Notes under the pieces: model-generated | Told to the model about the DNA's origin: nothing | What the model saw: the letters and a program-made list of their open reading frames with translations, nothing else | Databases searched by the model: none | Made by a program: the position numbers and the translations under genes | Source of the DNA: a virus | IMG/VR virus record: IMGVR_UViG_3300017763_000033 | Coordinates: 1 to 46,199 of that record | Length of the DNA stretch: 46,199 nt | Reading direction: 5' to 3' (one strand) | Shown here: in pieces, positions 29,329-45,389 of the stretch | Layout of the letters: the number at the start of each line of letters is the position of its first letter | Position numbering within the stretch: position 1 is the stretch's first letter

Positions 29329-30192
29329 ATGGCAAAACCATCAACTAAGCAAGGACTTATAGATTACTGTTTACGTCAACTTGGTGCTCCAGTGTTGGAA
29401 ATCAACGTGGACGATGATCAAATTGATGATCTAGTTGATGATGCAATTCAATATTTCAATGAACGTCATTTTGACGGTGTTGAAAAGATGTATCTCAAGT
29501 ATAAGATTACTCAAGAAGATATTGATAGAGGAATAGGCGCACAATCTTCTGGTGATAAAACAGTTAATCCTACTGGAGGAGTAGGCATTGTAACTACAAC
29601 TGCAACATCCGTTGGAGTTGCAGCATCAACATTTAATTTTTATGAAAATTCCAATTACATTCAAGTTCCTGATTCAGTAATTGGTATTGAAAAGATTTTT
29701 AAATTTGATACTAGTTCCATTTCTGGTGGAATGTTCAGTATTAAATATCAATTATTTTTAAACGATCTGTATTATTTCAATTCTGTTGAGTTGTTACAAT
29801 ATGCGATGGTAAAATCATATCTTGAAGATATTGACTTTTTACTAACGCCAGATAAACAAGTAAGATTTAATAAGAGACAAAATAGATTATATCTTGATAT
29901 TGATTGGGGTTCACAAAATGTGGATAGTTTTATGGTTATTGAATGTTATAGGGCATTAGATCCAGAATCATTTACAAAGATCTATAACGATAGTTTCTTA
30001 AAAAGATATTTGACTGCTTTGATTAAACGTCAGTGGGGTAGAAATCTCAGCAAGTTTAGAGGAGTTAAACTTCCTGGAGGAATTGAACTTAATGGTGGAG
30101 AAATCCTACAACAAGCAGATCAAGAACTTGCAGAAATCAAATCAAGGATGTCTATGGAATATGAACTTCCACCTCTCGACTTTATTGGATAA
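29329..30192 (+). CDS. 13: Neck protein gp13
   Basis: The 287-residue product (309 in T4) opens with the gp13 pattern: a helix ending YCLRQLGAPVLEINVDDDQI, then DDAIQYFNERHFDGVEKMYL at about 36-55. Later PDSVIGIEKIFKF and FNKRQNRLYLDIDWG are family-like. gp13 with gp14 forms the neck that closes the filled head below the portal and offers a docking site for the tail. Its stop overlaps the gene 14 start as TAATG, which suggests coupled translation and fixed stoichiometry. Identification is firm from sequence and the 13-14-15 order. Confidence 0.92.
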   Translation: MAKPSTKQGLIDYCLRQLGAPVLEINVDDDQIDDLVDDAIQYFNERHFDGVEKMYLKYKITQEDIDRGIGAQSSGDKTVNPTGGVGIVTTTATSVGVAASTFNFYENSNYIQVPDSVIGIEKIFKFDTSSISGGMFSIKYQLFLNDLYYFNSVELLQYAMVKSYLEDIDFLLTPDKQVRFNKRQNRLYLDIDWGSQNVDSFMVIECYRALDPESFTKIYNDSFLKRYLTALIKRQWGRNLSKFRGVKLPGGIELNGGEILQQADQELAEIKSRMSMEYELPPLDFIG

Positions 30193-31655
30193 TGGCACTT
30201 AATCCGTTTTTTCTACAAGGGACTGCATCTGAACAAAGATTAGTCCAAGATATAATTAATGAACACCTGTCGTTTCATGGTGTTGAAGTAACTTATATAC
30301 CAAGAAAATATGTAAATGTAAAAACGATTATTGATGAGGTCCAAACATCAAAATTTGATGATAATTTTGCGATTGAAGCATATGTTAATACGTTTGAGGG
30401 ATATGGTGGAGCAGGAGATATCCTAACAAAGTTTGGTGTAAGTATTAGAGATGAATTAATTCTTACAGTTTCTAAAGAAAGATTTGAAGATTTTATTGCG
30501 CCATTTATGGCAGGTCAGGATGATGGTACAGATACTTCCATTATGCCTACTCCAACTCGTCCTAGAGAAGGAGACTTAATATATTTTCCCTTAGGTCAAA
30601 GATTATTTGAAGTAAAATTTGTTGAACATGAAGATCCCTTTTTTCAGTTAGGAAAAAATTATGTTTATCAACTAAAATGTGAACTCTTTGAATACGAAAA
30701 TGAAGTTATCGATACAAGTATCGAAGGTATTGATACACAAGTTCAAGATGAAGGATATATCACAACGTTGCAATTGATTGGTGTTGGCAAAACTGCTACT
30801 GCCATAGCAAGTATTAATGGATCTGTAACAAGTGGTTACATAAAACAGATATTCCTTAATGATGGTGGAGGTGGATATACTTCTCCCCCTACCATCACAT
30901 TTAGTCCATCACCAACAGGTCAAATTGGTGATGTACCTACTGCAGAAAGTTTTTTAAAAACTAGTGGTGATGTTACTTCTGTTGATAGAATTTCTGTTAC
31001 AAATTCTGGTGCCGGATATACAACTCCACCAACAATCACAATAACTGGTGGCGGTGGTGTTGGAGCAGCTGCAACTGCTTCTATCATAACTAGTGGTCAA
31101 GGTGTAATTAGATTTACTGTTACTGATGGTGGTGTTGGTTATGGGACTGTTCCAATTGTTACTGTTGCAGGTCCACCATCAAGTGGTATTGCTCATACAG
31201 CAGTTGGTATTGCATCTATTGGTAATGTAGGATCTAATATTGTAGTTAAATCCATTTACATCCAAGATCCAGGAAGAGGGTATAGTTCTTCTCCAGAAGT
31301 TACTATTGCGGATCCAGAAATAATATCTGGTGTTGGAACATCATATGTTGGTTTTGGAGGAACATATTTGTTTAATGAAATTATTATTGGTTCTAAATCT
31401 GGATTACAGGCAAGGGTTAAAGAGTGGGATCAAGATAACTTTACTCTGAAGATTGCAAATGTTGGCATAGGTATTACTAGACCTACATTCTATCCTGGAG
31501 AAAACGTGGTTGGTGAGGACTCTGGTGCATCATATCCAGTTAAGATTTATACAGAGGATGATACCTATGATAAATATACCGAGAACGATGAGTTTGAATC
31601 TGCAGCAGACGATATCTTAGACTTCACAGAATCCAATCCATTTGGTACATATTAA
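30192..31655 (+). CDS. 14: Neck protein gp14 with an inserted beta-repeat domain
   Basis: Residues 1-190 match gp14: MALNPFFLQGTASEQRLVQD, VTYIPRKYVNV, GPW-like strands, and FPLGQRLFEVKFVEHEDPFF. T4 gp14 has 256 residues, this one 487. The excess is an insertion at about 195-410 made of four Gly-x-Gly-Tyr beta repeats: GGGGYTSPP (about 226), NSGAGYTTPP (271), GGVGYGTVP (314) and PGRGYSSSP (358). The tail end (about 410-487) returns to an acidic gp14-like sequence. gp14 joins gp13 in the head completion neck, so this version should carry a projecting beta domain on the neck, perhaps acting like whiskers or collar decoration. It is coupled to both neighbours by TAATG overlaps. Confidence 0.9.
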   Translation: MALNPFFLQGTASEQRLVQDIINEHLSFHGVEVTYIPRKYVNVKTIIDEVQTSKFDDNFAIEAYVNTFEGYGGAGDILTKFGVSIRDELILTVSKERFEDFIAPFMAGQDDGTDTSIMPTPTRPREGDLIYFPLGQRLFEVKFVEHEDPFFQLGKNYVYQLKCELFEYENEVIDTSIEGIDTQVQDEGYITTLQLIGVGKTATAIASINGSVTSGYIKQIFLNDGGGGYTSPPTITFSPSPTGQIGDVPTAESFLKTSGDVTSVDRISVTNSGAGYTTPPTITITGGGGVGAAATASIITSGQGVIRFTVTDGGVGYGTVPIVTVAGPPSSGIAHTAVGIASIGNVGSNIVVKSIYIQDPGRGYSSSPEVTIADPEIISGVGTSYVGFGGTYLFNEIIIGSKSGLQARVKEWDQDNFTLKIANVGIGITRPTFYPGENVVGEDSGASYPVKIYTEDDTYDKYTENDEFESAADDILDFTESNPFGTY

Positions 31656-32505: not shown

Positions 32506-32937
32506 ATGAGTGATAATTATGAATCCATTGACAACGCACTTGATATTGAAAGTAGCATTGTTGAATCTAAACCAATGAAACCTGTTCCTCCTAAGGTGGA
32601 AAAGGATGATATTAAAAAAGACTATGAGTACACAAGAGCAAACTTATATTCATTAATTGAGAAAGGTCAAGAAGCAATAAATGGTATTATGGAACTTGCA
32701 GGTGAAAGTGCAAGTCCTAGAGCATATGAAGTTGCTGGTCAATTAATTAAATCAGTTGCAGATACTACTGATAAGTTAGCAGATCTACAAAAGAAGTTAA
32801 AAGATCTAGAAGAAGATAATATTAAGAAAGGTCCAAATAATGTTACAAATAATGCTTTGTTTGTCGGATCAACAAGTGAGTTATCCAAACTACTGAAGCA
32901 AGGTTTTCTAAATAATACAGAAGATATCTCCAAATAA
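32506..32937 (+). CDS. 16: Terminase small subunit gp16
   Basis: The 143 residues fit T4 gp16 (164). The protein is helical and charged, with a central helical pair YTRANLYSLIEKGQEAINGI and VAGQLIKSVADTTDKLADLQ that gives the coiled-coil oligomerisation core, and a C-terminal segment SSTSELSKLLKQ-like that probably contacts gp17. gp16 forms rings that bind phage DNA and stimulate gp17 ATPase and packaging start. Its stop overlaps the start of an unusual 738-residue gene as TAATG, so the direct 16-17 adjacency of T4 is interrupted here. Identity follows from order and sequence pattern. Confidence 0.9.
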   Translation: MSDNYESIDNALDIESSIVESKPMKPVPPKVEKDDIKKDYEYTRANLYSLIEKGQEAINGIMELAGESASPRAYEVAGQLIKSVADTTDKLADLQKKLKDLEEDNIKKGPNNVTNNALFVGSTSELSKLLKQGFLNNTEDISK

Positions 32938-35153
32938 TGGCAAAGAAATCCTGCAAAAGAGGATATTATTATTGTTATGCTTCTAGTAAGTGTAAAAAAA
33001 TTCCTATGGGATATTTTGTTGGTATGGGTGGTTGGCTTCGTAAGGAAAAAGGTGATGATTCTGATGAAGAAACAAAAAATAATGGTAATGGAGGAAATGG
33101 AAATGGAAATCACTCAAATGGCAATGGAAACGGGGATGGCTCCTCTTCTGATGGAGGTGGTGAAAGCGGCGGAGGTGGCGTCTCTGAAGAATGGAGTGCA
33201 AAGTACAAAAAATCCATCGATTGTGACAATCCAAAAGGATTCTCTCAGAAATCCCATTGTAGGGGTAGGAAGAAAGTGAACGAAGAGAAGAAAGATCACG
33301 AGTATTCCATGGCTCGTTCAGAACTCAAAACTATTAAGAACGCTGCTTCCCGTCTTGAAAAGAAAATGGGTAAAAAGGGCGAAGGTGAACTTAAGGCGTG
33401 GGTTCAATCAAAAATTACCAAGGCAGCAGATTATATTGACACTGCAGCAGATTATGTAACTAATGAGGAAACTATTGCAGAAAAACGTGATGGTAAATCT
33501 GCTAAAGATAAAGGTTATTCTCTTAAAGATTGGTTCAAAGGTGGTGGTTGGGTTCAAGCAGGTGGTAAGTACGATGGAAAACCATGTGCCAAACAACCAG
33601 GACAAAAAACTAAACCATTTTGCCGTGATGCTGATGATCGAGCCAACATGAGCAAGAAAGAGAGAAGCAGAAGAGCAGCAAAGAAACGTAGAGAAGATCC
33701 AAACGCAAATAGGACAGGTAAAGCAAACATGGTATCAGCATCTTACTCAAACTGGAAACAAGACTTAAATCAACTAGATGAGGTCGCTCCATTAGTATAT
33801 GCAGCAGGTGCTGCTGCTCTTGCTGCACCATACCTTATTAAAAAGTTTGTTAAACCAAAAGTAGATAAGATGCTTGATGGTACGACAAAAACTAAACCAT
33901 TATCTAATTCAACATCAAAACCATCATCCCTTCAACAAGCACAACAAAATGCTAGAGATATTGGTAAGATGACAGGAACTTCTGGTTTGATGAATAAGAC
34001 TATTAATACTTCAGATAAAATACAAACCAGATATGATCGTCTCAGAGATGCGATGAGACAATCAGGAATGAAAGGTGCGGATCAAAATATGAATATGCGT
34101 GGAGTTATGATGAAAAATTCATATCAACCAGAAGGTGGATTAGTTGATGAAGGAAATATTGGATACTCCAATCCATCAATCAATGGCAAACCCATTCTAG
34201 ACCGTAAAGGCAAACCCGTGTCTTTCAATAAGGCAGAAACTGAGGATATGAATCGCTATAGGAGAGCAAGTAAAAAAGCGGGTAGAAAAATTTATGCAGA
34301 TGAACCTTTACCTGAAGAAACTGAGATAGTAGATGAGGGTAAGAAAGATGCCTGCTACCATAAAGTCAAGTCCCGTTATTCTGTCTGGCCAAGTGCATAT
34401 GCATCAGGCGCTCTAGTGAAGTGCCGTAAAGTTGGTGCTAAGAATTGGGGTAACAAGACCAAAAACGAAAGTTATGAGTTCTCCAACTGGAGAGATGATT
34501 TCCAGGCAACTGAAGTAGAATCGGTAGATTTGATTTCTAACGAACCACTTCAACCAACTCAAGGTCTTGGTAGTGATATGCTTGATGAGAAAAAAGATAT
34601 ACCATCAGATGTAAAGAATATCGCTAAAGAATTAGACAAAGCAGGTATTTCTGAAGAAAATATTAATGAGAAGTGTTGGAAAGGATATACCAAAAAAGGC
34701 ATGAAGACTATGTTTGGAAAGAGGTATCCAAACTGCGTAAAGAAAGAAGAAGTTGAAATTCAAGAAGCAATTCCTGAATATGGGAAATATGATTCTGCTA
34801 TGGACAAGATTAGAAAAAAATCTTTTACCGGACGAGAATTGATTAATGCATTAAAAACAGCTGCTAAATTGAGACCTACTGAAAAAAAAGTAGTGAGTGA
34901 AGACTGGCAGAAGTCGAACCGCAAAGATGGTGTTGATGGTATGAGTCAAAAATCTGTCAATGCTTATAAAAGTGAAAATCCAGGTTCAAAGTTACAGACT
35001 GCGGTAACTGGCAAAAATCCTAAAGGTAAAGACAAAAAGAGACGTAAGTCTTTCTGTGCCAGATCTAAGGGTCAAAAAGATATGCACAACATTGATTGTT
35101 CTAAGACACCAGATAAGAAAATCTGTAAGGCACGTAAACGTTGGAGATGTTGA
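32937..35153 (+). CDS. Modular cysteine-rich protein between terminase subunits (738 residues)
   Basis: No function is recognised. The protein is a string of short modules: a Cys cluster (C6, C13, C19) then GMGGWLRKEK; a Gly/Asn/Ser linker (about 49-82); a Cys pair C96/C108; a helical module at 121-174 ending WVQSKITKAADYIDTAADYV; a basic module at 194-253 with KDWFKGGGWVQAGGKYDGKP; SASYSNWKQDL; a hydrophobic, possibly membrane-active stretch PLVYAAGAAALAAPYLIKKF (274-293); CYHKVKSRYSVWPSAYASGA with C473/C496; YEFSNWRDDF; C580/C600 in a GMKTMFGKRYPNC unit; and a C-terminal basic unit with four Cys ending at C738. I recall several of these units recurring in other marine phage proteins (the last resembles DUF6321). 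It is very basic overall, which fits DNA or RNA contact, or an internal head protein. TAATG overlap with gene 16. Confidence 0.75.
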   Translation: MAKKSCKRGYYYCYASSKCKKIPMGYFVGMGGWLRKEKGDDSDEETKNNGNGGNGNGNHSNGNGNGDGSSSDGGGESGGGGVSEEWSAKYKKSIDCDNPKGFSQKSHCRGRKKVNEEKKDHEYSMARSELKTIKNAASRLEKKMGKKGEGELKAWVQSKITKAADYIDTAADYVTNEETIAEKRDGKSAKDKGYSLKDWFKGGGWVQAGGKYDGKPCAKQPGQKTKPFCRDADDRANMSKKERSRRAAKKRREDPNANRTGKANMVSASYSNWKQDLNQLDEVAPLVYAAGAAALAAPYLIKKFVKPKVDKMLDGTTKTKPLSNSTSKPSSLQQAQQNARDIGKMTGTSGLMNKTINTSDKIQTRYDRLRDAMRQSGMKGADQNMNMRGVMMKNSYQPEGGLVDEGNIGYSNPSINGKPILDRKGKPVSFNKAETEDMNRYRRASKKAGRKIYADEPLPEETEIVDEGKKDACYHKVKSRYSVWPSAYASGALVKCRKVGAKNWGNKTKNESYEFSNWRDDFQATEVESVDLISNEPLQPTQGLGSDMLDEKKDIPSDVKNIAKELDKAGISEENINEKCWKGYTKKGMKTMFGKRYPNCVKKEEVEIQEAIPEYGKYDSAMDKIRKKSFTGRELINALKTAAKLRPTEKKVVSEDWQKSNRKDGVDGMSQKSVNAYKSENPGSKLQTAVTGKNPKGKDKKRRKSFCARSKGQKDMHNIDCSKTPDKKICKARKRWRC

Positions 35154-35167
35154 ATTAGGTTTTTATT

Positions 35168-36817
35168 ATGAGTGAACAGTATCTTGGTAATCCCAATCTA
35201 AAAAAAGCAAATACGGCGGTCGAATTTAGCGAAGAGCAAATCATTGAATTTGTCAAGTGTAAGGAAGACCCTGTTTATTTTGCAAACAATTATATTAAAA
35301 TTGTTTCTCTTGACGAGGGTCTTACACAATTTCATCCATATCATTTTCAGGAAAAATTAATCAACAACTTCCATGAAAATAGATTCAATATTTGCAAGAT
35401 GCCAAGACAGACTGGTAAGTCTACTACTGTAATATCTTACCTTCTACATTACGCTGTTTTTAACGATAGTGTTAATATTGGCATCCTAGCAAACAAGGCA
35501 GCAACCGCAAGGGAACTTCTCAGTAGATTACAGACTGCATACGAGAACTTGCCTAAATGGATGCAACAGGGTATTATATCCTGGAACAAAGGATCTATGG
35601 AGTTAGAGAATGGCAGTAAGATATTGGCAGCTTCTACGTCTGCAAGTGCTGTCCGAGGCATGTCATTCAATATCCTCTTCCTCGACGAATTTGCATTCGT
35701 TCCAAACCATGTTGCAGACTCGTTCTTTGCATCTGTTTATCCTACTATTACTTCTGGTAAAAACACCAAAGTAATTATTGTATCCACGCCACACGGTATG
35801 AATCATTTCTACCGTATGTGGCACGACGCGGAGAAAGGTAAAAATGAATACATTCCAACTGATGTTCATTGGTCCGAGGTTCCTGGAAGAGATGATGTAT
35901 GGAAAGAACAGACGATTGCTAACACATCTGAACAGCAATTCAAAGTCGAGTTCGAGTGTGAGTTTCTTGGTTCTGTCAATACCCTTATAAATCCATCAAT
36001 CCTAAAAAATCTCATTTACGAAGATCCTATTCAAAGGAATGCAGGTTTAGATGTCTACGAAAAAAAGCAAGAGGAACACAACTACCTTCTTACTGTTGAC
36101 GTTGCTCGTGGGTTGGGCAACGATTATTCTGCATTTATCGTTGTTGATATTACAGAGTTTCCCTACAAGATAGTAGCGAAGTATAGAAATAATGAAATAA
36201 AACCGATGTTGTTTCCCAACATCATTCAACAAACAGCAAAAGCATATAATGATGCTTGGGTACTTGTAGAAGTTAATGATATTGGAGAGCAAGTAGCAAG
36301 TATTCTCCACTATGACCTAGAATATGAAAATATGCTGATGGCAGCAATGAGAGGTCGTGCTGGACAAGTTGTTGGTCACGGGTTCTCAGGTAAAAAATCA
36401 CAGATGGGTGTTAGAACAACGGCACAAGTTAAAAAACTTGGTTGTTCAAACTTAAAACTGTTAATTGAAGATTTTAAATTACTTACACTCGACTATGAAA
36501 TAATTTCAGAGTTAACGACATTTGCTCAGAGACATAATTCTTTTGAAGCAGAAGAAGGTTGTAATGATGACCTTGCAATGTGTCTTGTTATCTTTGCTTG
36601 GTTGGTAGCACAAGACTACTTCAAGGAAATGACTGATAATGATATTCGTAAGAGAATATATGAAGAGCAGAAAAATCAGATAGATCAAGATATGGCACCA
36701 TTTGGATTCTTAGATGATGGTATTAACGATATGACAGGATCATTTACAGATAAAGATGGTGACCGTTGGCATACTGATGAGTATGGTGACGTAGCACAAA
36801 TGTGGGAATATCATTAA
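35168..36817 (+). CDS. 17: Terminase large subunit gp17
   Basis: The 549-residue motor protein has all expected motifs. Walker A is PRQTGKST (79-86). Walker B with catalytic Glu is ILFLDE (169-174). A coupling motif lies at IIVSTPHG (203-210). The RNase H-type nuclease carries Asp311 and Asp319 in TVDVARGLGNDYSAF, Glu368 in VLVEVND, and Asp467/Asp468 in GCNDDLAMCL. The nuclease acids keep the T4 spacing (eight residues between the first two). It cuts concatemeric DNA and pumps it into the prohead through the gp20 portal. Its own start follows a short gap after the cysteine-module gene. It is translationally coupled by TAATG to a small zinc-ribbon gene downstream. Confidence 0.96.
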   Translation: MSEQYLGNPNLKKANTAVEFSEEQIIEFVKCKEDPVYFANNYIKIVSLDEGLTQFHPYHFQEKLINNFHENRFNICKMPRQTGKSTTVISYLLHYAVFNDSVNIGILANKAATARELLSRLQTAYENLPKWMQQGIISWNKGSMELENGSKILAASTSASAVRGMSFNILFLDEFAFVPNHVADSFFASVYPTITSGKNTKVIIVSTPHGMNHFYRMWHDAEKGKNEYIPTDVHWSEVPGRDDVWKEQTIANTSEQQFKVEFECEFLGSVNTLINPSILKNLIYEDPIQRNAGLDVYEKKQEEHNYLLTVDVARGLGNDYSAFIVVDITEFPYKIVAKYRNNEIKPMLFPNIIQQTAKAYNDAWVLVEVNDIGEQVASILHYDLEYENMLMAAMRGRAGQVVGHGFSGKKSQMGVRTTAQVKKLGCSNLKLLIEDFKLLTLDYEIISELTTFAQRHNSFEAEEGCNDDLAMCLVIFAWLVAQDYFKEMTDNDIRKRIYEEQKNQIDQDMAPFGFLDDGINDMTGSFTDKDGDRWHTDEYGDVAQMWEYH

Positions 36818-41663: not shown

Positions 41664-41918
41664 ATGGAAGATGTTATTGACCTGATCGCTACCGGCGGAT
41701 CCCAGTCCGATGTTAGCGATAAAATGAAGGAAGTTTTGTTTGCAAAAGCATCAGAACGCATTGATATTGCTAGACCTTATGTTGCTAACGCTATGTTTGG
41801 TCAAGAATTTGAATATCCGGAAGTGGAAGAAACTAAGGATGAGACTGAGGTTGAAGCGGAAGCGGAAACTGAAGTTGGTGATGAAGTAAAAACTGAACCA
41901 GAAGAGGATTCTGAGTAA
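41664..41918 (+). CDS. 67: Prohead core protein, gp67-like
   Basis: The product has 84 residues, near T4 gp67 (80). The first half is helical (MKEVLFAKASERIDIARPYV). The second half is an acidic Glu/Asp tail, which is the gp67 layout. It lies directly after gene 20 and before the gene 21-22-23 group, as in T4. gp67 fills the prohead core, shapes the head and is degraded by gp21 to an internal peptide. Its stop overlaps the next ATG as TAATG. Direct sequence identity with T4 is low, so the call depends on position and composition. Confidence 0.75.
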   Translation: MEDVIDLIATGGSQSDVSDKMKEVLFAKASERIDIARPYVANAMFGQEFEYPEVEETKDETEVEAEAETEVGDEVKTEPEEDSE

Positions 41919-42175
41919 TGGCATACATTCGTCACGACGAAAACTGCAATCCTGTTTCTCCTCAACCAGGAAAAACATCAGTCACACAATTTGGTGGCAA
42001 TGAAGGGTGGTCAAGTGTTACTTATGAAAACTTCAATGCGGACTATCAAGCCCGTAATGCTGATAACACACCTAGAACTCCTGGAACATATCAAGCAAGA
42101 AATGCTGATAATTCTCCCAGGACACCTGGAACATATCAACGTCATGATGAAAACTGCAATCCAGTAACAGGTTAA
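41918..42175 (+). CDS. Tandem-repeat protein in the gene 68 position
   Basis: This 85-residue protein lies where T4 has gene 68 (prohead core), but I see no sequence relation to gp68. Its layout is striking. RHDENCNPV occurs at residues 5-13 and again at 75-83, flanking two 15-residue tandem copies, YQARNADNTPRTPGT (43-57) and YQARNADNSPRTPGT (58-72). The repeats are polar and Pro/Asn-rich, so the protein is probably extended or disordered. One Cys lies in each flanking motif (C10, C80). It may be a core or internal head protein that gp21 processes, or a minor capsid peptide. Coding status is well supported by the TAATG overlap with the gp67-like gene and the four-base gap to gene 21. Confidence 0.7.
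   Translation: MAYIRHDENCNPVSPQPGKTSVTQFGGNEGWSSVTYENFNADYQARNADNTPRTPGTYQARNADNSPRTPGTYQRHDENCNPVTG
42044..42133 (+). repeat. Two tandem 45-base coding repeats
   Basis: Two in-frame 45-base units encode YQARNADN-T/S-PRTPGT twice in the gene at 41918. The units differ at several third codon positions, so the duplication is not brand new and the peptide is conserved by selection. Confidence 0.8.
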
Positions 42176-42179
42176 AAAA

Positions 42180-42830
42180 ATGAAACTTATCACAGAAGAA
42201 GTAACAAACGTACAGATTATTACCGAAGGTAAGGGTTCTAATAAGAGACTTTATATTGAAGGTGTATTCCTTCAAGGTGAACTCAAGAACCGTAATGGAA
42301 GAATGTATCCCATTACTACCCTTTCCAAAGAAGTAGATCGCTACTGCGAAGCTTTCGTTAATAAGGGTCGTGCTCTTGGTGAACTTGGTCATCCTGATGG
42401 ACCTACCGTCAATCTTGATCGTGTTTCTCATAAAATTACTTCTTTAGTAAGAGAAGGTAATAACTTTAAAGGAAAGGCACAAATTCTTTCCACCCCTATG
42501 GGCAAAATTGCGTCTTCCCTTCTCGATGAAGGTGTTATGCTTGGCGTTTCTTCTCGCGGTGTTGGTTCACTCCAAACTACCAGTGAAGGATGTAAGATTG
42601 TTGGTGAAGATTTTCAGTTAGCAACTGCTGCTGATATCGTTGCTGATCCTTCCGCTCCTGATGCATTTGTCAATGGAATTATGGAAGGTAAAGAATGGGT
42701 TTGGGAAGGAGGAATCCTTCGTGAACATCTTGCTGAAATGACCAAGAAGAGAATTAATACTCTCGTAGATCAAAGACAACTTGAAGAGAAAAAATTGGAT
42801 CTATTCAATAATTTCCTCTCAAATCTTTGA
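42180..42830 (+). CDS. 21: Prohead core protease gp21
   Basis: The 216-residue product (212 in T4) has the herpesvirus-assemblin-like serine protease features of gp21: the catalytic His71 in LGELGHPDGP and the nucleophile Ser in LGVSSRGVGS (Ser124 or Ser125). GVFLQGELKNRNGRMYP (28-44) is also typical of the family. It cleaves gp22, gp67 and gp23 after Glu in L/I-x-Glu sites during head maturation. It is flanked by core and scaffold genes, as expected. Only an A-run, no clear Shine-Dalgarno, precedes its ATG. Confidence 0.94.
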   Translation: MKLITEEVTNVQIITEGKGSNKRLYIEGVFLQGELKNRNGRMYPITTLSKEVDRYCEAFVNKGRALGELGHPDGPTVNLDRVSHKITSLVREGNNFKGKAQILSTPMGKIASSLLDEGVMLGVSSRGVGSLQTTSEGCKIVGEDFQLATAADIVADPSAPDAFVNGIMEGKEWVWEGGILREHLAEMTKKRINTLVDQRQLEEKKLDLFNNFLSNL

Positions 42831-44009: not shown

Positions 44010-45389
44010 ATGCAAATGCCTAACTCAGAGGTTCTGCAGGAAAAGTGGGCACCCATTCTCGACTATGAGGGAATGGATCCAATTAAGGATTCCCACCGCA
44101 GAGCTGTTACCGCTGTTCTCCTAGAGAACCAAGAAGCAACACTTCGTGAGGAGCGTGAGTTCCTTTCCGAAGGTCCTACCAACGCTGTTGGTAATGGTGG
44201 ATACACCTCCGCCGGCGGACAGAATGTTGCTGGTTTCGACCCCGTTCTGATCTCCTTGATCAGACGCGCAATGCCTAACTTGGTCGCATATGACCTCGCA
44301 GGTGTTCAACCAATGTCCGGTCCTACTGGACTCATTTTCGCAATGCGTTCCAAGTATTCCACTCAAGGTGGATCGGAAGCATTGTTCGACGAAGCAGATA
44401 CCGCATTCGCAGGTCAGTCTGCTGCTGCTGGTGCGCTCACTAACGGCATGTCTGGCGCTGCTGTTGGTATGGGTACCGACGCACAAGCAGGCAACAATCC
44501 TGGTCTCCTTAACCCTGAGTCTGGTCAAACTGGAACCACCTACAACGTAGGTCAGGGTATGCGTACCGACGACGCCGAAAATTTAGGCGACGGTTCAGGT
44601 GCATTCAACGAAATGGCATTCTCGATCGAGAAGGTCACCGTTACTGCTAAGAGCCGTGCTCTGAAAGCAGAATACTCCTTAGAACTCGCGCAAGACCTCA
44701 AGGCAATCCACGGTCTGAATGCTGAAGCCGAACTGGCTAACATTCTCTCCACCGAAATCCTTGCAGAGATCAACCGCGAAGTCATCAGAACCATCTATAA
44801 CGTTGCTGAGTCTGGTGCTCAAGCAAACGTTGCTTCTGCTGGTACTTTCGACCTCGACGTTGATTCCAACGGACGTTGGAGTGTTGAGAAGTTCAAAGGA
44901 CTGATTTTCCAAATCGAGCGCGATGCTAACGCAATCGCACAAAGAACTCGTCGTGGAAAGGGCAACATGATCCTCTGCTCCGCAGACGTTGCTTCTGCTC
45001 TGACCATGGCAGGCGTACTCGACTACACCCCCGCACTCAACGCTGGTCTTAACGTTGATGACAGTGGCAACACCTTCGCTGGTGTTCTTGCTGGTAAGTA
45101 TCGTGTCTACATCGATCCTTACGCCGCAAACAGTGCAGCTGCTCAGTACTACGTTGCTGGTTACAAGGGTGCATCCCCATATGACGCAGGTCTATTCTAC
45201 TGCCCATATGTTCCTCTCCAGATGGTTCGTGCCGTTGGACAGGACACCTTCCAACCCAAGATTGGCTTCAAGACCCGCTACGGTATTGTTGCTAACCCAT
45301 TCGCAGAAGGCACCAACGTTGGCGCAGGCGCTCTTACCAAGAACGCTAACCGCTACTACAGACGTGTCCGCGTTAACAACCTCATGTGA
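44010..45389 (+). CDS. 23: Major capsid protein gp23
   Basis: The 459-residue HK97-fold precursor is recognisable by its propeptide (MPNSEVLQEKWAPILDYEG), then a likely gp21 cleavage at FLSE-GPTN (after Glu54). The mature core follows: FDPVLISLIRRAMPNLVAYD, GVQPMSGPTGLIFAMRSKYS, AKSRALKAEYSLELAQDLKA, LAGKYRVYIDPYA and FKTRYGIVANPFAEG. T4 gp23 has 521 residues, the difference being mainly in the insertion domain. The gene is richer in G+C and C-ending codons than its neighbours (32 of 60 at 44941-45000), fitting very high expression. There is no clear Shine-Dalgarno, only T6 then A7 up to the ATG; a second in-frame ATG lies at 44016. A terminator follows. Confidence 0.97.
   Translation: MQMPNSEVLQEKWAPILDYEGMDPIKDSHRRAVTAVLLENQEATLREEREFLSEGPTNAVGNGGYTSAGGQNVAGFDPVLISLIRRAMPNLVAYDLAGVQPMSGPTGLIFAMRSKYSTQGGSEALFDEADTAFAGQSAAAGALTNGMSGAAVGMGTDAQAGNNPGLLNPESGQTGTTYNVGQGMRTDDAENLGDGSGAFNEMAFSIEKVTVTAKSRALKAEYSLELAQDLKAIHGLNAEAELANILSTEILAEINREVIRTIYNVAESGAQANVASAGTFDLDVDSNGRWSVEKFKGLIFQIERDANAIAQRTRRGKGNMILCSADVASALTMAGVLDYTPALNAGLNVDDSGNTFAGVLAGKYRVYIDPYAANSAAAQYYVAGYKGASPYDAGLFYCPYVPLQMVRAVGQDTFQPKIGFKTRYGIVANPFAEGTNVGAGALTKNANRYYRRVRVNNLM

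Follow-up and report, generated by a model that had tools for sequence, protein, structure and literature searches.

Hydrophobic-x-Glu sites at the module boundaries of a T4-GC 119 homologue suggest a capsid-directed polyprotein in a T4-like cyanophage relative

The gene at 32937–35153 (+) of the DNA analysed here encodes a 738-residue homologue of T4-GC 119 that is built of short, shuffled modules, and hydrophobic-x-Glu triplets mark most of the module starts in its family. The product is probably a capsid-directed polyprotein that the prohead protease gp21 would cut into about 11 peptides, some of which, as basic cysteine-containing mini-proteins, would travel with the DNA. The whole stretch (hereafter the window) comprises the 46,199 nucleotides of IMG/VR virus record IMGVR_UViG_3300017763_000033 and belongs to a T4-like cyanophage relative whose gp23 shares 80% identity with those of P-SSM2 and S-SM2 and which also encodes gp21, gp22 and the portal. 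Four genes of the window are referred to throughout:

32506–32937 (+): gene 16, small terminase (phrog_445)
35168–36817 (+): gene 17, large terminase (phrog_2)
42180–42830 (+): prohead protease (phrog_207), homologue of gene 21, proposed to make the cuts
44010–45389 (+): gene 23, major head protein (phrog_138)

As an earlier note on this DNA had stated, the protein is basic (computed net charge +54, pI 9.6, 15 Cys) and its gene is coupled to gene 16 by TAATG (32935–32939), in which its start overlaps the gene 16 stop codon; terL starts 14 bases 3′ of its end. No tandem repeats were found within the gene. Elsewhere in the window, the gene 14 homologue (30192–31655) has an extra region at about aa 215–375 matching tail-fibre and baseplate PHROGs, and an 85-aa ORF between portal and gene 21 (41918–42175) carries repeated RHDENCNPV and QARNADN-TPRTPGTY peptides.

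The family is not new as a gene. The Pfam scan of the window protein returned only DUF6321 (PF19846), at the C-terminal aa 666–736 with 42 bits against a gathering cut-off of 28.5, and no match to DUF5872 (PF19197). PHROGs assigned the protein to phrog_727 (E = 2e-74) and to other families lacking an assigned function, and neither Pfam nor PHROGs revealed an enzyme or peptidase domain. PDB sequence searches with the whole protein and an M9 profile gave nothing up to E = 1. Relatives were identified by tblastn in 383 phage records, nearly all of cyanophages. Annotated genomes, with genes 15, 16 and 17 as neighbours, call the gene T4-GC 119, and the family had therefore already been catalogued. 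It adjoins terS/terL in most cyanophages looked at. The insertion between the terminase subunits noticed earlier is real here and is not unique to this phage: the gp16–gp17 interval is a hot-spot of variable genes in cyanophages (Sullivan et al., 2010, PMC3037559), and in P-SSM2 T4-GC 119 lies between genes 15 and 16. Similarly, the supposedly undescribed system is catalogued as T4-GC 119, phrog_727 and DUF6321, but has no assigned function in the records and literature consulted, which treat T4-GC 119 as a hypothetical or structural protein and contain no module, cleavage or targeting analysis of it. We found no paper on DUF6321, and the portions of the literature consulted describe no prohead-protease-cut polyprotein of this type. 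What is new are the sites, the controls, the targeting neighbours, the clusters of separate module genes and the link to published virion mass spectrometry.

Profiles were built from eight segments of the window protein, and 80 IMG/VR loci with homologues were fetched; among the ORFs of the loci gathered, matches per segment (E < 1e-3) ranged from 39 (H5) to 84 (M4). The modules occur in more than 30 orders and combinations, counting partial ORFs, for example M4-M8-M6-M9 in P-SSM2, M3-M1-M4-M6-M8-M9 in S-SM2, M4-M2-M6-M3-M8-M9 in DSL-LC02 and M2-M4-M6-M3-M8-M9 in S-SRM01, and conservation is concentrated in them. The profile searches and module-order mapping that the earlier note had recommended thus bear out its mosaic of short modules between the terminase genes, through segment profiles, reordering and module-focused conservation. 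Two further modules were observed in relatives: the S-SRM01 polyprotein (L005:4007–5836) has a DUF5661 (PF18905) domain, and S-SCSM1, S-SM2 and DSL-LC02 have another module of about 65 aa, VTWRGKGYSLKMFFP...KVYPGG. The parts of the window protein are listed below, a slash marking a predicted cut:

32946–33050 (+): module M1, aa 4–38, 3 Cys, KSCKRGYYYCYASSKCKKIP, with profile matches; followed by an acidic/NG-rich linker
33186–33188 (+): predicted gp21 site GVSE/EWSAK, after aa 84; motif before M2 in 33 of 33 homologues
33189–33284 (+): module M2, aa 85–116, 2 Cys; C-terminal end at predicted site KVNE/EKKDH
33285–33482 (+): module M3, aa 117–182, helical hairpin; C-terminal end at predicted site TIAE/KRDGK
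33483–33737 (+): module M4, aa 183–267, 2 Cys, basic
33741–33782 (+): candidate capsid-targeting peptide SYSNWKQDLNQLDE, aa 269–282, ending in a predicted gp21 site
33783–33839 (+): hydrophobic Ala/Gly-rich stretch VAPLVYAAGAAALAAPYLI, aa 283–301, a new N-terminus if LDE is cut
34149–34151 (+): predicted gp21 site LVDE/GNIGY, after aa 405
34335–34337 (+): predicted gp21 site IVDE/GKKDA, after aa 467
34338–34466 (+): module M6, aa 468–510, 2 Cys, nearly invariant
34476–34589 (+): module M7, EFSNWRDDF...MLDE/, aa 514–551, with the second SNWR peptide and predicted site MLDE/KKDIP
34671–34754 (+): module M8, aa 579–606, 2 Cys, beta hairpin; preceded by predicted site NINE/KCWKG
34767–34901 (+): helical segment, aa 611–655, flanked by predicted sites EIQE/AIPEY and VVSE/DWQKS
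34902–35150 (+): module M9, aa 656–738, DUF6321, 4 Cys, net charge +17

Ten predicted cuts would give fragments of 84, 32, 66, 100, 123, 62, 84, 27, 32, 45 and 83 aa, those containing M2, M4, M8 and M9 having a pI of 9.5–10.2; three extra hydrophobic-x-Glu triplets, after aa 460, 573 and 614, are possible additional cut sites. AlphaFold modelled the whole protein at a mean pLDDT of 54, mostly with low confidence between modules, and its confident parts include the M3 helical hairpin and helices at 615–645. M9 was modelled as a three-helix domain (pLDDT 80) resembling no PDB fold, its sole fold matches being DUF6321-type viral proteins. The modules may bind DNA or metal; zinc or DNA binding is not inferable from the M9 fold because a PDB fold match is absent. 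The SNWK peptide, LDE triplet and hydrophobic stretch pointed out earlier are all present, the first at 269–277 and the other two at 280–282 and 283–301, respectively, rather than at about 269–272 and at 274–293; FSNWRDDF, too, has an LDE after it, at 549–551. If freed, the Ala/Gly-rich N-terminus could, speculatively, be a membrane-active piece. Cleavage of an internal-head protein at the first LDE by a gp21-type protease, as the earlier note had suggested, fits a wider pattern: this triplet is one of about ten predicted sites, and the same motif marks most module starts.

In the family, the residues upstream of modules read MLDE/KCW, LLGE/AKKCW, VIDE/AGKKCW, LVDE/GKKDACY, VITE/KRDGKS, GVSE/AWSAKY and ELQE/DWQK. 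Among 84 distinct homologues, the motif is found at the module start in 33/33 cases for M2, 66/73 for M4, 51/68 for M6, 65/70 for M8 and 55/69 for M9, against a background frequency of 8% across all five-residue windows and 14% in those from linkers. To allow for the common descent of homologues, we grouped upstream contexts at 40% identity, after which 69 of 82 contexts (M3 excluded) carry the motif compared with 8.3% of non-boundary linker windows, and about 16% are without it; the formal p of 4e-61 for 69/82 overstates the independence of homologous sequences. A narrow test at M3 found the motif in only 5 of 52 because the M3 boundary lies a few residues upstream, and a wider zone has it in seven of nine contexts. 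The signal is position-specific: position −2 of the boundary Glu is I/L/V/M/F in 71% of cases vs 16% for other Glu residues, and the hydrophobic share at −1, −3 and −4 is 9%, 37% and 15%.

Modules of polyproteins carry the motif in 41/58 (M9), 54/62 (M6), 48/51 (M4) and 24/24 (M2) cases, whereas their stand-alone counterparts in loci without a polyprotein do so in 3/55, 1/24, 4/24 and 0/4, respectively. This near-absence indicates that the motif goes with the polyprotein form and not with the module family. It also bears on the idea that the protein is an uncut structural component of the virion, a modular adaptor decorating head, neck or tail whose Glu-rich linkers are merely flexible. Homologues are indeed listed among virion proteins (below), and the one of S-P4 is annotated 'structural protein'; such a role is nevertheless quite improbable given a hydrophobic preference that peaks at −2 and is missing from stand-alone modules, and given the T4-type targeting sequences on genes alongside it in relatives.

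T4 gp21 cuts after L/I-x-E, and within the 10-residue T4 capsid-targeting sequence (CTS) residues 4 and 7 target and residues 8 and 10 are required for cleavage (PMC9026906); the sites described here have V, M and F at P3 besides L/I. This motif type also occurs at a candidate maturation site in the window gp23, EFLSE/GPTNA (EFLSE/GPTNAVGNGGYTSAGGQ), the placement of which is supported by the nearly identical sequence that follows LKE in the CTS protein of S-SM2. The N-termini of T4 IPII and IPIII read MKTYQEFIAE/A. The window protein is without an N-terminal CTS and starts with MAKKSCKRGYYY; CTS-type peptides instead lie inside polyproteins or on neighbour genes of relatives. When the pattern M[KQR][TS][FYL]xxFx(x)E was sought close to ORF starts, 7,693 ORFs yielded 39 CTS-like starts vs 0.2 expected, namely T4 ipII and ipIII, S-CREM2 ORF136 and others that all lie at most 459 bases from a module ORF; these 39 are not independent because they form, by eye, about nine families. 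One is a 51-aa gene of relatives that fuses a CTS to M2 (MKTFKQFQE/DWSNKYKKS). In many relatives, the polyprotein gene is closely followed on its 3′ side by a gene of about 100 aa (phrog_1742) with a perfect CTS-like start, MKSFQQFLQE/S (e.g., L020:8195–8506 and L067:7429–7734), which was not found in the window. A 142-aa protein of S-SM2 begins MKTLKQFLKE/TPTNSVGNGGYTSAGG... and continues with RKTFEEFRE/SWSNKYKKS, and in some polyproteins a CTS-like peptide precedes M9 (KTFGQFME/DWQK, KTLSQFME/DWQK).

In the window protein, the peptide SYSNWKQDLNQLDE may be likened to the T4 CTS. A looser SNWR pattern, sought as a putative N-terminal signal, occurs in six ORFs vs 0.7 expected; because only two clearly relevant full-length proteins have it, P-SSM2 GC121 and S-CREM2 ORF155, a targeting role for SNWR can be proposed only tentatively. 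Two other observations concern proteins of this kind. In locus L104, a 230-aa basic protein (1237–1929) directly 3′ of a module protein starts with MKTYKEFITE/A, almost the T4 CTS, and is a candidate injected protein. The S-SM2 protein at L003:3674–4102 and S-CREM2 ORF160 (L007:3629–4522) contain a copy of the mature gp23 N-terminal arm, TPTNSVGNGGYTSAGGQTVAGYD, and ORF160 matches the major head protein family phrog_696 (E = 5e-10); from their sequences, such module/CTS proteins are possible mimics of the capsid arm.

Absence from virions had been named in advance as evidence against an internal-head role. Homologues are, however, present in the virion mass spectrometry list of S-CREM2 (Table 3 of PMC10665884): ORF137 (108049–109521; 4 peptides, 4.1% coverage), which is the T4-GC 119 homologue (phrog_10346 and phrog_727); ORF136 (8 peptides), which adjoins it and starts MQTFSMFFSE/D; ORF155 (5 peptides), which contains YSWREELSE/K; and ORF160 (128342–129235; 7 peptides), with the module order M4-M8-M6. 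The S-SCSM1 homologue QFG06285.1 is named 'virion protein' in its record, and 45 virion proteins of that phage were identified by mass spectrometry (PMC9602691). Since the S-CREM2 virion list also includes gp21 (4 peptides) and the scaffold protein gp22 (7 peptides; PMC10665884), detection does not prove retention of the modules, which might be expelled like core fragments. The protein could be a prohead core component that is cut by gp21 and serves head assembly like T4 gp22, gp67 and gp68, most fragments exiting before packaging. T4 core proteins are cut by gp21 into several fragments that mostly leave the head (PMC9026906), and the scaffold and protease remnants of S-CREM2 appear at peptide counts similar to those of the homologues. 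We consider this unlikely, because the modules are strongly conserved, contain cysteines and are shuffled, unlike the acidic window gp22, and because phages without any polyprotein encode the same modules as separate genes, which cannot be such core fragments.

These separate genes came from a scan with the M9 profile, in which 80 loci were fetched, 62 of them polyprotein-free. Small M9, M6 and M4 genes occur separately in 23 of the 62, three of which have M2 too, and stand-alone trio loci number 25 including Roseobacter phage CRP-7 and one M8-M4 fusion. In these 25 loci the trio lies on a single strand within 0.6–3.2 kb, M6 usually abutting M4. Among annotated loci, it comes just after the major head protein in L115, L120 and L162, and in L152 it adjoins a DNA ejection protein and a virion structural protein. 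In CRP-7, gp65, gp64 and gp63 are M9-, M6- and M4-like, respectively, and stand beside terL; the M6 gene encodes 47 aa, and the M4 homologue scores just under the DUF5872 cut-off (27.3 vs 27.5). M9 is a single gene in pelagiphages and Microcystis phage LMM01, and 47 contigs from bacterial and archaeal assemblies carry relatives of it, a large share of them being short MAG or single-cell contigs of possibly viral origin. The modules thus recur elsewhere, as the earlier note had stated, even as stand-alone genes, and separate genes in some phages with a cleavable chain in others are the pattern expected if the polyprotein consists of independent units.

The genomic settings also speak to the DNA-packaging role that had been proposed from position, in which the protein would be an accessory working with gp16/gp17. 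Its place beside terS/terL in most of the cyanophages compared and the CRP-7 trio beside terL are in favour of such a role, but gene order varies, the P-SSM2 copy preceding gene 16, the other stand-alone trios in annotated loci neighbour genes for major head or ejection proteins, and homologues are virion-associated. Position alone points to packaging, and we regard it as very improbable.

The capsid-directed polyprotein that we favour would be made late, along with other head genes, and be brought to the prohead core through short targeting peptides, which in the window protein would be the two SNWR/K peptides and in relatives also KTFxQF peptides similar to the T4 CTS. There gp21 would cut after the hydrophobic-x-Glu sites between modules and release about 11 products, with M1, M2, M4, M6, M8 and M9 as small Cys-containing units and M2, M4, M8 and M9 as the strongly basic ones. 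At least some mini-proteins would remain inside the head beside the packaged DNA and would probably be delivered into the cell along with it. More broadly, and with less confidence than we place in the polyprotein itself, it is possible that each phage injects its own cocktail of shuffled mini-proteins, carried in one self-targeted polyprotein and diced inside the head by the prohead protease, or elsewhere encoded as separate genes.

Similar to the T4 internal proteins IPI, IPII, IPIII and Alt, which have a CTS, are cleaved by gp21 and are ejected, this system has gp21-type sites, small basic predicted products, virion-associated homologues and, in relatives, neighbour genes with T4-type CTSs (MKSFQQFLQE and MKTYKEFITE, compared with MKTYQEFIAE in T4). 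T4 uses separate genes with one N-terminal CTS each, whereas here many mini-proteins form one chain with internal sites. For the window protein, no sequence relative was found among the T4 internal proteins. Like polyvalent proteins (Iyer et al., 2017, PMC5512222), it has many shuffled domains per polypeptide; those proteins are believed to enter the head and to be freed there or later by proteolysis, and they mainly contain enzyme domains with embedded zincin-like peptidases. The sections consulted describe no chain of mini-proteins cut by a prohead protease, and the paper nowhere mentions cyanophages. Prohead-protease substrates of phiKZ and SPN3US are likewise cut after x-x-Glu, some are ejected, and long propeptides are cut several times (PMC10052503, PMC7411985), but 13 of 14 SPN3US sites remove N-terminal propeptides, whereas here the sites separate conserved modules. 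The system takes a route like that of T4 internal proteins and has a layout like that of polyvalent proteins, each minus a defining feature, because its own N-terminal CTS and enzyme or peptidase domains, respectively, are absent.

T4-like cyanophages rank among the sea's most abundant viruses. They are without alt, modA and modB (PMC2984593), and this analysis turned up no counterpart in cyanophages of the proteins that T4 injects. The present results offer a hypothesis of function for a widespread gene that has no assigned function and is present in most T4-like marine cyanophages, and CTS-like starts, SNWR peptides and hydrophobic-x-Glu boundaries provide a search key for cyanophage internal-head cargo. 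They also link the gene to a widespread, unexplained trio of DUF6321, M6 and DUF5872-like M4 genes in other marine phages. If true, the cocktail polyprotein would be a DNA-virus counterpart of the polyproteins of RNA viruses, one that uses the protease of capsid maturation.
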